Of a stretch of 38,053 nucleotides of DNA, positions 34,671-38,053 are shown in pieces; the stretch's first letter is position 1; every line of letters starts with the position of its first letter. Source of the stretch: Teichococcus deserti (GTDB lineage: Bacteria > Pseudomonadota > Alphaproteobacteria > Acetobacterales > Acetobacteraceae); assembly GCF_001982615.1 (NCBI RefSeq), contig NZ_MLCO01000225.1:1-38053 (forward strand), in the 5' to 3' direction. The notes beneath the pieces are model-generated. The model did no database searches. It was not told where the DNA came from and saw only the letters and a list, made by a program, of their open reading frames with translations. Both the position numbers and the translations under genes were made by a program.

Positions 34671-35540
34671 TCAGGCGGTCTGGGGGACGGCCCGCGGCAC
34701 CGCCTGCAGCGCGGTGAAATAGGTCGCGGCCAGGCTGCCGGCATGGCGCCGGTCATGCTCGCCCAGCAGGTGCAGCACGACGTCGTAGGACTGGTAGCAG
34801 TCGTGCAGGATGGCCGACATGGCCAGCAGCTGGTGGTCAGTCAGTGCCGCCGGCTTGGTGAAGTCGCGCAGGAACAGCCCGTCGGCCCAGACCAGCTGCG
34901 AAAGCCCGGCATAGATGTTCTGGTCGACCAGCATCGGCCGGATCGTCCGGCTTACGACCGGGAAGAAGCGATGAAAAACAAAACCCTGGCCGCGGAGAAA
35001 GCGCTCCACGTCGCCGAACAGGGGCTGGTCCTTGTAGAGCGGCAGAAACTCGACCTCGGCCTGGATCACCGAGGCATGCGCCAGGCGCTGCACCGCGTTC
35101 TGCAGCACCATCAGCTCGGCGCCCTGGATGTCGAGCTTGAGCAGGTCGGCGCCTTCGGTCTCGGGGACGTCGTCCAGGCGGACGGTGTCGATCTCCTCCC
35201 GCCCCAGCACCGTCCCCCAGTCGGGGAAGCCGTGGAACAGGCCGAGGATCGCAGGATCCGGCTCAAGAAGAGAAGTCATCCCCGGCGCCTGGCAGATCTT
35301 CAGCGTGTGCCGCCGGCCATCGCCCACCGCATGCGGGAAATAGCGCTCGAGCGCGGAGCGGCGCTGGTCCAGCACCGCCAGCGCATCCGGATTGGGCTCG
35401 AAGCCGACCACCTCGGCCGCGCCGCGCCGCAGCATCCCGGCATAGGGCGGGTCGCTGTCGATCGGATTGGCGCCGATATCGACGACCCTGACCCGGAGGT
35501 CGAGGCCCGAGAGCGCGTTGAAGCTGGCGGCGTCGCTCAT
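34671..35540 (-). CDS. FkbM family methyltransferase
   Basis: A 289-residue SAM-dependent O-methyltransferase of the FkbM family: RVVDIGANPIDSDPPY, AAEVVGFEPNPDAL, the hallmark LLKLDIQGAELMVLQNA (about 132-148) and VIQAEVEFLPLYKDQPLFGDVERFLRGQGFVFHRF. Members methylate sugar hydroxyls of antibiotics, glycolipids, surface polysaccharides or glycoproteins. The C-terminal 70 residues (HDCYQSYDVVLHLLGEHD) are an addition beyond the core domain. AGGAAGG lies before ATG 35540. It follows the Thr-rich repeat-protein gene by 78 bases on the same strand, so a glycan on that protein is a candidate acceptor (inference). Confidence 0.9.
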   Translation of the reverse strand: MSDAASFNALSGLDLRVRVVDIGANPIDSDPPYAGMLRRGAAEVVGFEPNPDALAVLDQRRSALERYFPHAVGDGRRHTLKICQAPGMTSLLEPDPAILGLFHGFPDWGTVLGREEIDTVRLDDVPETEGADLLKLDIQGAELMVLQNAVQRLAHASVIQAEVEFLPLYKDQPLFGDVERFLRGQGFVFHRFFPVVSRTIRPMLVDQNIYAGLSQLVWADGLFLRDFTKPAALTDHQLLAMSAILHDCYQSYDVVLHLLGEHDRRHAGSLAATYFTALQAVPRAVPQTA

Positions 35541-35578
35541 CCCCGAGCCTTCCTCACCATTCGACAGCAGGAACCATC

Positions 35579-35607
35579 GCCCGCCGCCGCGGGTTGCGGC
35601 GGCGGGC
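35579..35607 (-). terminator. 12-bp perfect hairpin after the repeat-protein gene
   Basis: GCCCGCCGCCGC (35579-35590) pairs with GCGGCGGCGGGC (35596-35607), with a five-base loop. It starts 11 bases after the stop. No T-run follows, so it may only attenuate, protect the mRNA end, or allow read-through into the FkbM gene. Confidence 0.5.
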
Positions 35608-35618
35608 GGCGAGAGCCC

Positions 35619-38053
35619 TCAGAGGAAGAGGGCGCTCACCTGGTTGTTGTCCATCGCACCGATCTGGGTCGAGGTGAAGGCCGCCACCTGGGTGTCGGTC
35701 AGCGCCACGATGTCGGAGGTCTCCAGGCCGGTGATCTGCGTCGTGGTCAGCGCCGCCAGCTGGCCCGTGGTGAAGCCGGCCATCTGGGTGGTGGTCAGGG
35801 AGGTCACCGCCGTGCTGGTCAGCGCCACCACCTGGGTGGTGGACAGGCTGCCGATCAGCTCGGTGCCGAGGCCGCTGACCTGCGTCGTGGTCAGCGCCGC
35901 CAGCCCGGTGGTGGTCAGCCCGACCACCTGGCCGGTGGTCAGCGCGTTCAGCTGCGTCGCCGTCAGCCCGCCGATCTGGGTGGTGCTGAGCACGGCGATG
36001 TCGCTGGTCTCGAGCCCGCGGATCTGGCCGGTGGCCAGGCCGCGCAGCTGGGTGGTGGTCAGCGCCGAGACCTGGGTGGTGGTCAGCGCGGCCACCTGGC
36101 CGGTGGTCAGGCCCTTCAGCTGCGCCGTGGTCAGCACCGCGACATCGGTGCTCTCCATGGCCTGCAGCTGGGCGTTGCTCAGCCCGGCCAGCTGGGTCGA
36201 GGTCAGCCCCGCCATCTGCGTCGTGGTCAGCGCCGCCAGGTCGGTGGTCTCGAGGCCGCGCAGCTGCGCGGTGCTCAGGGCGCCGATCTGGGTGGTGGTC
36301 AGCGCCACGACCTGGGTGGTGGTCAGCGCCGCCACCTGGGTCGAGGTGAAGCCCACCACCTGGGCCGAGTTCAGCGAGGCCACCTGGGTGGTGGTCAGCG
36401 CCCCCAGCTGGGTGGTGTTCAGCGCCGCCAGCTGGCCGGTGGTCAGGCCGCGCAGCTGGGTGGTGGTCAGCACCGCCAGGTCGGTCGATTCCAGCGCCAC
36501 CACCTGGGTGGTGGTCAGGGCGCTGACCTGGCCGGAGCCGAGGCCCGCCATCTGCGTCGTGGTCAGCGCCGCGATGTCGGTGGTGTCGACCGCCTTGATC
36601 TGGGCGGCGGTCAGGCTGCCCAGCTGCGTCGTGGTCAGGGCGGTGACCTGGGTCGAGGTCAGCGCCGTCACCTGGGTGGCCGTCAGGCCACGCAGCTGCG
36701 CCGTGGTCAGCACCGCGAGGTCGGTGGTCTCGATCGCCACCAGCTGGGCGGTGGTCAGCGCCGCCACCTGGCCGGAGCTCAGCCCGACGATCTGGCTGGT
36801 GCCGAGCGCGGCGATGTCGGTGGTCTCGAAGCCCTTCACCTGCGCGGTGGTCAGCGCGCCGATCTGGGTCGAGGACAGGCCCGGCAGCTGCGTCGTGGTC
36901 AGCGCCGCCACCTGGGTGGTGGTCAGGCCCTGCAGCTGGGTGCTGGTCAGCGCGCCCAGCTGGGTGGTGGTCACCGCCTCCATCTGCGTCGTGGTCAGCG
37001 CGCCCAGCTGCGCCGAGCTCAGCCCGCGCACCTGGGTGGTGGTCAGCACGGCCAGGTCGGTGGTGTCGAAGCCGCGCATCTGCGCCGTGGTCAGCGACGC
37101 CAGCTGGCCGGTCGAGAGCGCGCCCACCTGGGTGGTGGTCAGCGCGCCGACCTGCGTCGTGGTCAGCCCCTTCACCTGCGCCGTGGTCAGCGCGGCGACC
37201 TGGGTGGTGGACAGCGCGCCCAGCTGCGTGGTCGTCAGCGCGCCGAGCTGGCTGGAGGTCAGGCCGCGGATCTGGGTGGTGTTCAGCACCCCCACATCGG
37301 TCGATTCCAGCGCCGCGACCTGGGCGTTGCTGAGCGCCGCCAGCTGGCCGGTGGTCAGGCCCAGGATCTGCGTCGTGGTCAGCGCCACCAGGTCGGTGGT
37401 CTCGAAGCCGCGCAGCTGGCTGGTCGACAGCGAGGCGAGCTGGCCGGTGGACAGCGCGCCCACCTGCGTGGTCGACAGCGCCGCCACCTGGGTGGTGGTC
37501 AGCCCGGCCAGCTGCGTCGTGGTCAGCGCCGCCACCTGGGTGGTGTTGATGGCGTCGAGCTGCGTCGTGGTCAGGGCGCCGATCTGGCTGGCCTGCAGGC
37601 CACGGATCTGCGTGGTGTTCAGCACCGCCAGATCCGTGGTCTCGAAGCCGCGCAGCTGCGTCGTCGTCAGCGCGCCCAGCTGTGGCGCGGTCAGGCCGGC
37701 CATCTGCGTCGTGGTCAGCGCCGCGATGTCGGTGGTGTTGAAGCCCATGACCTGGCCGGTCGACAGCGCGGCCAGCTGGGTCGTGGTGACGGCGGCCAGC
37801 TGCGTCGTGGTCATCGCCGCCACCTGGGCGGTGGTCAGGCCCTTCAGCTGCGCCGTGGTCAGCACCGCGACATCGGTCGATTCGAGCCCCACGAACTGCG
37901 CCGTGGTCAGCGCCGCCAGCTGCGCCGAGCCGAGGCCGACGATCTGCGAGGTGGCCAGCGCGGCCAGGTCGGTGGTCTCGAAGCCCAGCACCTGCGCGGT
38001 GGTCAGGGCGGCCAGCTGCGTCGTGGTCAGCGCGCCCACCTGGGTGGTGGTCA
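35619..38053 (-). CDS. Giant Thr-rich octapeptide-repeat protein, 5' end outside window
   Basis: At least 810 residues, open through the window edge, so the start, any signal peptide and the true length are unknown. Nearly the whole visible part is octads such as ALTTTQVA, with GFETTDLA variants; threonine plus serine make up over a third. There are no cysteines and almost no charge except K/R and E/D at fixed octads. The tail reads AFTSTQIGAMDNNQVSALFL and stops, with no cell-wall anchor or transmembrane helix. T-T-T-Q followed by hydrophobics fits a helix N-cap box, so a tight helical or solenoid fibre is possible. It is most like repeat proteins labelled adhesin or surface-layer, but I do not recognise a family. 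Two methyltransferase genes follow on the same strand. Confidence 0.85.
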   Translation of the reverse strand, partial: TTTQVGALTTTQLAALTTAQVLGFETTDLAALATSQIVGLGSAQLAALTTAQFVGLESTDVAVLTTAQLKGLTTAQVAAMTTTQLAAVTTTQLAALSTGQVMGFNTTDIAALTTTQMAGLTAPQLGALTTTQLRGFETTDLAVLNTTQIRGLQASQIGALTTTQLDAINTTQVAALTTTQLAGLTTTQVAALSTTQVGALSTGQLASLSTSQLRGFETTDLVALTTTQILGLTTGQLAALSNAQVAALESTDVGVLNTTQIRGLTSSQLGALTTTQLGALSTTQVAALTTAQVKGLTTTQVGALTTTQVGALSTGQLASLTTAQMRGFDTTDLAVLTTTQVRGLSSAQLGALTTTQMEAVTTTQLGALTSTQLQGLTTTQVAALTTTQLPGLSSTQIGALTTAQVKGFETTDIAALGTSQIVGLSSGQVAALTTAQLVAIETTDLAVLTTAQLRGLTATQVTALTSTQVTALTTTQLGSLTAAQIKAVDTTDIAALTTTQMAGLGSGQVSALTTTQVVALESTDLAVLTTTQLRGLTTGQLAALNTTQLGALTTTQVASLNSAQVVGFTSTQVAALTTTQVVALTTTQIGALSTAQLRGLETTDLAALTTTQMAGLTSTQLAGLSNAQLQAMESTDVAVLTTAQLKGLTTGQVAALTTTQVSALTTTQLRGLATGQIRGLETSDIAVLSTTQIGGLTATQLNALTTGQVVGLTTTGLAALTTTQVSGLGTELIGSLSTTQVVALTSTAVTSLTTTQMAGFTTGQLAALTTTQITGLETSDIVALTDTQVAAFTSTQIGAMDNNQVSALFL
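35637..38036 (-). repeat. 100 tandem 24-base octapeptide repeats in a 576-bp superrepeat
   Basis: One hundred consecutive octads without a single inserted or lost residue. The consensus is x-[AG]-L-T-T-T-Q-[VLIM]. Fifteen octads have D for Q at place 7 (type GFETTDL, ALESTDV). Numbered from the N-terminal side, these fall at 3, 7, 13, 17, 27, 31, 41, 51, 55, 61, 65, 75, 79, 85 and 97. Fourteen of the fifteen fit offsets 3, 7, 13 and 17 of a 24-octad period; only octads 37 and 89 have lost the D. K/R-G-L octads (9, 33, 57, 81; 19, 43, 67) follow the same period. The array decays toward the C-terminus. Confidence 0.9.

Follow-up and report, generated by a model that had tools for sequence, protein, structure and literature searches.

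A PF20080 octad-repeat protein of Teichococcus deserti and its relatives: super-repeats, a shared rotation and a predicted alpha-solenoid

The window, by which we mean the whole 38,053-nucleotide stretch of Teichococcus deserti DNA that was analyzed, is an entire contig (C141; G000:C141:1-38053). On the minus strand, its final 2.4 kb (35619..38053) is filled with threonine-rich eight-residue repeats, or octads, which form the 3′ part of a gene that matches the Pfam family PF20080. The minus frame 38039..35619 encodes 806 residues, which equals 1 + 100 × 8 + 5, and every octad step is exactly eight residues. This bears out the original prediction that 100 octads run without indels, here followed by a five-residue tail. 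Steps other than eight were likewise absent from arrays of relatives with 346 (L064), 264 (L066) and 211 (L077) octads. Since the frame stays open up to the contig end, the GTG at 38039 need not be the start codon; the gene is truncated at its 5′ end in the window, and its true start lies beyond the contig end. We performed a genome-wide profile search and found PF20080 matches on C141 only (23 matches), so the missing half of the gene is unassembled. Its closest relative, L078, is a complete gene of 1,697 residues with the N-terminus MAVIGSLNTTQ, in which inspection by eye found no visible Sec signal. The two proteins are 87.7% identical across 810 shared residues, and the window encodes part of a giant protein of about two hundred eight-residue units.

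Third-position G+C is similar in the minus frame (98.6%) and in the plus frame from 35467 (97.9%), and we therefore chose the strand by the Pfam match, by the existence of complete relatives and by the codon-position identity to L078, which in the minus frame is 0.928, 0.941 and 0.821 at the first, second and third positions, with third positions differing most. Long open frames of 1103 and 862 residues are also present on the plus strand. We rejected the plus-strand reading after a Pfam scan, which covered the frame at 34743-38051 and not the one from 35467, gave no match. This 1103-residue frame, which is antisense to both the octad gene and its downstream neighbor, is probably a by-product of 24-bp periodicity and codon bias. 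The downstream neighbor is an FkbM-family methyltransferase gene (PF05050; 34671..35540, minus strand), a homologue of which also adjoins the octad gene in L077, L078 and L122. It is followed by a class I SAM methyltransferase gene (PF08241; 34003..34647, minus strand), with homologues in 11 of 39 octad loci, window included.

The octad protein scored 602.9 bits against PF20080 (ALTTAQ repeat; cut-off 26.4) in 32 stretches, and its 100 octads are tandem eight-residue units of the type L-T-T-x-Q-[VIL]-A-[AG]. The sequence family is thus shared, although the Pfam unit spans 38 positions, and the 24-octad order, the 3.4-octad rotation and the locus described below are not part of the PF20080 name or model. 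We found the octad family in 26 of 150 genomes of the bacterial family and in 6 of 385 genomes of the class (own genome counted in both), and took long stretches from 16 of the 25 other positive family genomes, picked for array length and contig room. Ten pattern matches were found on viral contigs, with no relative among them. The best PDB sequence match was HeliScrew4 (9zem, E = 9.1e-13), whose name suggests a designed protein. This 120-residue chain has the same eight-residue pattern (ALTPEQIAAL...); compared by sequence alone, it differs in being rich in proline and glutamate and in having at most about 15 octads. Pfam thus already covers the sequence family, and the PDB already contains a short chain with the same type of repeat. 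Our literature search for ALTTAQ, HeliScrew and five repeat strings returned no paper on any of these in the library searched.

The array divides into four units of 24 octads and a C-terminal block, all on the minus strand. Aspartate replaces glutamine in 15 octads (0-based 2, 6, 12, 16, 26, 30, 40, 50, 54, 60, 64, 74, 78, 84 and 96), hereafter D-octads. Counted from 1 within each unit, these lie at offsets 3, 7, 13 and 17 in unit 1 (37461..38036); at 3, 7 and 17 in unit 2 (36885..37460), where offset 13 is occupied by KGLTTTQV; at all four offsets in unit 3 (36309..36884); and at 3, 7 and 13 in unit 4 (35733..36308). The four offsets that the original prediction had named for a 24-octad cycle thus account for 14 of the 15 D-octads (phases 2, 6, 12 and 16, 0-based), a phasing matched in none of 100,000 random placements (p = 1e-5). 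It had also placed K/R-G-L octads at 9, 33, 57 and 81, which is correct, with K or R found in other octads as well. The odd one out, octad 97, is part of the C-terminal block GLETSDI...GAMDNNQVSALFL and stop codon (35619..35732). This block, a similar version of which (GLETSDI...GAM...ALFL) is present in relatives with other super-periods, is a candidate secretion signal. An excess of D-octad pairs at 24 octads, on which the original prediction had staked its case, is present when multiples of 24 are scored and the statistic is maximized over periods 16-40 (p = 5e-5). Shuffling only the order of the 14 D-octad spacings gave p = 0.04, so the signal in the window by itself lies mostly in the set of spacings, and the rest is supplied by relatives. 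Specifically, acidic-octad pairs at lag 24 numbered 21 in L077 (3.0 expected) and 22 in L078 (3.9 expected). These loci come from genomes G153, an assembly of 5 contigs, and G162; the presence of the 24-octad order in both rules out assembly collapse, raised at the outset, as its source. All 15 D-octads of the window are kept in L078, with no amino-acid change on any Q/D position. The cycle further divides into 10 + 14 octads, and lags 10, 14, 24 and 34 are among the strongest.

At the DNA level, identity within the window peaks at a lag of 24 octads (71.7%). Neighboring 24-octad units share 71-74% of their nucleotides in the window, 82-97% in L077 (93-97% in 6 of 7 pairs) and 65-98% in L115 (95-98% in 7 of 9 pairs). 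The copies in the window are therefore old, though block duplication occurs in the family; the predicted growth by 576-bp blocks holds for L077 and L115, where adjacent units reach 97-98% identity, and is not recent in the window itself. A separate feature of these arrays is an alternation of odd and even octads (frequency 0.5), strong in L077, L078, L115, L116, L123 and the window, which are mostly arrays of the 24-octad type. All 15 D-octads of the window fall on even octads. In several 24-octad arrays, window included, the 0.5 peak exceeds the peak described next, and it does not rank among the top four in arrays with 17- or 31-octad units.

We subjected arrays of at least 60 octads to period tests. 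In 24 of 27 arrays, the strongest periodogram peak (0.05-0.49; all octad residues) fell at 0.289-0.2965 cycles per octad; the exceptions were L081, L082 and L087. Many of these arrays are mutually related and contain non-independent copies within one gene. Tandem units in these 27 arrays are of 17, 24 or 31 octads or are not clear. The main lag is 17 octads in L061, L062, L066, L081 and L086 and 31 octads in L063, L064, L065, L067 and L118, and the remaining members have 24, mixtures or little tandem signal. At 3.4 octads per turn, units of 17, 24 and 31 octads come to about 5, 7 and 9 turns. Among the six arrays of least tandem similarity, five were in the same band (0.290-0.295), with a mean of 0.2926, or 3.42 octads (27.3 residues) per turn; a lag-24 signal is present in L069, which is counted in this set, and in L084 and L117. 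At a twist of 0.2926, whole turns are approached most closely, among lengths of 12 to 40 octads, by 24, followed by 17, 34 and 31. In 26 of 29 arrays, band power was above that of permuted controls (p ≤ 0.045), namely in 17 of 18 under permutation within units and 9 of 11 under free shuffling, the latter set including L086, L122 and L123, which have super-lags. The sets of 29 arrays contain two frames of the broken Pseudoroseomonas locus L122 that are not in the sets of 27.

Covariation between octads was calculated in nine diverged arrays. Excess mutual information was highest for lag 3 (0.922), followed by lags 7 (0.798), 4 (0.793) and 1 (0.710), with lower values for lags 6 (0.499) and 5 (0.435); that lag 7 is slightly above lag 4 counts against the twist model. 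At lags 3 and 4 it is chiefly unlike positions that covary, as helices stacked one turn apart would give; like positions dominate the top pairs at lags 10, 17 and 24, which is what one face would give. These computations support a rotation of about 105 degrees per octad, or about 3.4 octads (27 residues) per turn, common to the family. In 18 of 23 arrays (window R 0.74 vs 0.52), the D-octads placed on this rotation cluster on one side above the 95% level for random placement, a level not exceeded in the other 5. Common rotation and phase clustering together indicate that the D-octads form a stripe, in line with the original prediction that acidic octads mark a face. It had also proposed a fiber with a defined pitch; a shared rotation was recovered by two sequence methods, but 24 octads amount to about seven turns, so 24 is not the pitch.

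Structure prediction, which had been suggested as a check, was run on 48 octads. AlphaFold with 32 sequences (model m83a7d7edb4f9) gave a short-helix solenoid with a mean pLDDT of 96.3 and a pTM of 0.82, in which each octad is one helix, mostly of 5-6 residues, and no strand occurs. The 32 rows of the alignment were picked for gaplessness, as an earlier set of 71 rows gained 288 gap columns; it has 416 columns for 384 residues. The diverged L083, folded alone without an alignment, had the same helix pattern with a pLDDT of 86.4 (five models ranging from 52.6 to 86.4). In both m83a7d7edb4f9 and m301469f7c5ef, the helix pattern is interrupted halfway along the 384-residue query (residues 187-196) despite differing sequences; this irregularity is probably a prediction artefact. 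We also scanned backbones made of a six-residue helix and a two-residue link, and 119 models were clash-free solenoids, mostly with 2-4.25 octads per turn and of both hands. The 25 of 251 backbone models that best matched the covariation had 3.1-3.8 octads per turn. Within these 25, contact scores favored right-handed models (AUC 0.74-0.98 vs 0.59-0.72), and overall correlations were alike for the two hands. The predicted fold is thus an alpha-solenoid with one short helix per octad. A Foldseek search returned weak matches only, with no convincing relative among the best 50 of 468. Mesothelin (PDB 7ued) had the best E-value among these 50, but with a TM of just 0.24/0.29 and 15% identity there is no case for the same fold. 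HeliScrew4 was not among the best 50 of the 468 matches.

To characterize the genomic neighborhood of the octad genes, we compared 39 loci. In L077, the divergent side carries genes for an HlyB-type ABC transporter, HlyD, a sugar-nucleotide epimerase, the OGT-type glycosyltransferase GT41 and a further TPR protein (cut by the stretch end), and a whole-genome search found two adjoining GT41-like genes. The HlyD is over the cut-off of TIGR01843 (280.7 bits), and the best model for the ABC protein is TIGR01846 at 614.1 bits, below the cut-off of 725.55. A similar gene set is annotated on pL11-A of Pseudoroseomonas cervicalis (L122). Homologues are also found on plasmids of Cereibacter sphaeroides 2.4.1 and of a strain derived from it, and plasmid b of the derived strain has a simpler set comprising a methyltransferase, HlyD, ABC, OGT and the octad protein (L123). 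GT41 is present in 22 of the 39 loci, an ABC exporter in 11 and HlyD in 10 (window included), in a set with many loci cut by contig ends, with queries supplied by five loci besides the window, and including L072 and L119, where the frame finder saw no octad frame, as well as several pairs from one genome or MAG. When the count was limited to the 18 loci flanked by 4 kb on each side, GT41 lay within 8 kb of the octad gene in 12. It was absent nearby in 6, and 3 of these (L061, L117 and L121) share a genome with another, GT41-linked octad gene. In eight less-flanked loci, the edge of the GT41 match is 38-326 bp from the octad frame. Across the genus, the same 3 of 17 genomes carry GT41 (E ≤ 1e-30) and HlyD (E ≤ 1e-40) along with the octad gene.

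Adjacent HlyB-type ABC and HlyD genes, the arrangement of type I secretion, are thus found in relatives and in part in the own genome, where HlyD (truncated by the contig start), an epimerase, GT41 and a second, cut GT41 lie on contig C111. The best ABC match in the own genome had 33% identity, and no close exporter was found there; the gene presumably lies in an assembly gap. The proteins of the window, L077 and L078 contain no RTX GGxGxD nonapeptides. An ending like ALFL occurs at 17 of 39 frame ends, a set that includes broken frames and pieces.

We consider it likely that these observations describe a fixed-twist alpha-solenoid with an acidic stripe that is glycosylated by GT41 and exported by an HlyB/HlyD-type system as a surface or matrix fiber. 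The giant PF20080 protein would be one continuous solenoid in which each octad is a short helix of about 1.5 turns with a two-residue link. With the chain turning about 105 degrees per octad, or 3.4 octads per turn, octad i would stack on i+3 and i+4. Super-repeats of 17, 24 and 31 octads would be tandem duplications close to whole turns (5, 7 and 9), which would keep the E-T-T-D octads on one side as an acidic stripe. This stripe may hold a cation, serve in lateral packing or be a bare face. Synthesis of the protein is most likely cytoplasmic, and the association of genes at the locus suggests that its threonine-rich octads are O-glycosylated by the GT41 enzymes and that the HlyB/HlyD-type system then exports it. 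We see roughly even chances that this is an exported glyco-screw family with a fixed 3.4 octads per turn, in which only near-whole-turn duplications (17, 24 and 31) survive and a straight acidic stripe runs along a threonine-glycosylated rod with a dedicated GT41 and type I locus.

The 24-octad cycle might instead be a mere trace of 576-bp tandem duplication with no structural meaning, as the near-identical copies in L077 and L115 and the best DNA lag of the window would allow. We find this improbable, given that one frequency is common to 17-, 24- and 31-octad units of different lineages, that permuting octads within units weakens the band in 17 of 18 arrays, that five of the six least tandem arrays have the same peak and that covariation of unlike positions at lags 3-4 is unexpected under block duplication. 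Database names raise the further possibility of a leucine-rich-repeat, ice-nucleation or heme-utilization (FHA-like) beta-solenoid: two further Pfam models score above their cut-offs, LRR_EndoS (E = 9.1e-14) and CAAP1 (E = 6.5e-8), and homologues are annotated as “ICE nucleation protein” and “heme utilization protein.” No single stretch passes by itself for LRR_EndoS or CAAP1, however. Leucine-rich repeats have the form LxxLxLxxN with a beta-strand, and ice nucleation proteins are beta-solenoids of TxT repeats. We rejected the former, as three proteins lack the L..L.L..N motif and the models lack strands, and the latter, as the unit is eight residues and both AlphaFold models are helical and strand-free; a beta-solenoid of any of these kinds is very unlikely.

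An alpha-solenoid could also serve as an unglycosylated structural fiber, with GT41 and the methyltransferases acting elsewhere, for example on surface polysaccharide. Glycan clusters often carry FkbM and epimerase genes, and a third of the well-flanked loci (6 of 18) have no GT41 nearby. The tight spacing of GT41 and octad frame in the eight less-flanked loci and a threonine content of 21.5-24.8% in three proteins speak against it, as does the finding of these genes together in 3 of 17 genomes, a pattern that a single linked island would also produce. We regard the unglycosylated fiber as possible, if rather doubtful, and prefer the glycosylated, exported solenoid. For HMW1/HMW1C and FlmG-flagellin, a soluble glycosyltransferase is described as dedicated to an exported protein, be it an adhesin or a filament component (PMC3983070, PMC7591256), and HMW1C-like enzymes are described as modifying asparagine (PMC10507012). 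The octad system resembles these in having what may be a dedicated cytoplasmic glycosyltransferase for an exported protein, known here from gene association, and differs in its predicted type I route and predicted alpha-solenoid substrate. Literature searches that paired GT41 with type I secretion or with Cereibacter gave no title about an octad-protein system. The locus offers bacterial GT41 enzymes a candidate dedicated substrate. If the solenoid reading is true, the twist of a repeat protein could be read from its sequence, and the sizes of gene duplications would be quantized by protein geometry.

Finally, we noted several features of individual homologues. L082 and L085 have non-octad sequence towards the C-terminal end of the available frame, with D-x-D-x-N/D-G motifs that we take to be calcium-binding-like. 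On the Pseudoroseomonas cervicalis plasmid, the annotation splits the octad gene (L122, 10974-16094) into several hypothetical proteins that lie in different frames. The homologue on the Cereibacter sphaeroides plasmid (L123, 6936-11621) is the one named “ICE nucleation protein,” apparently wrongly.
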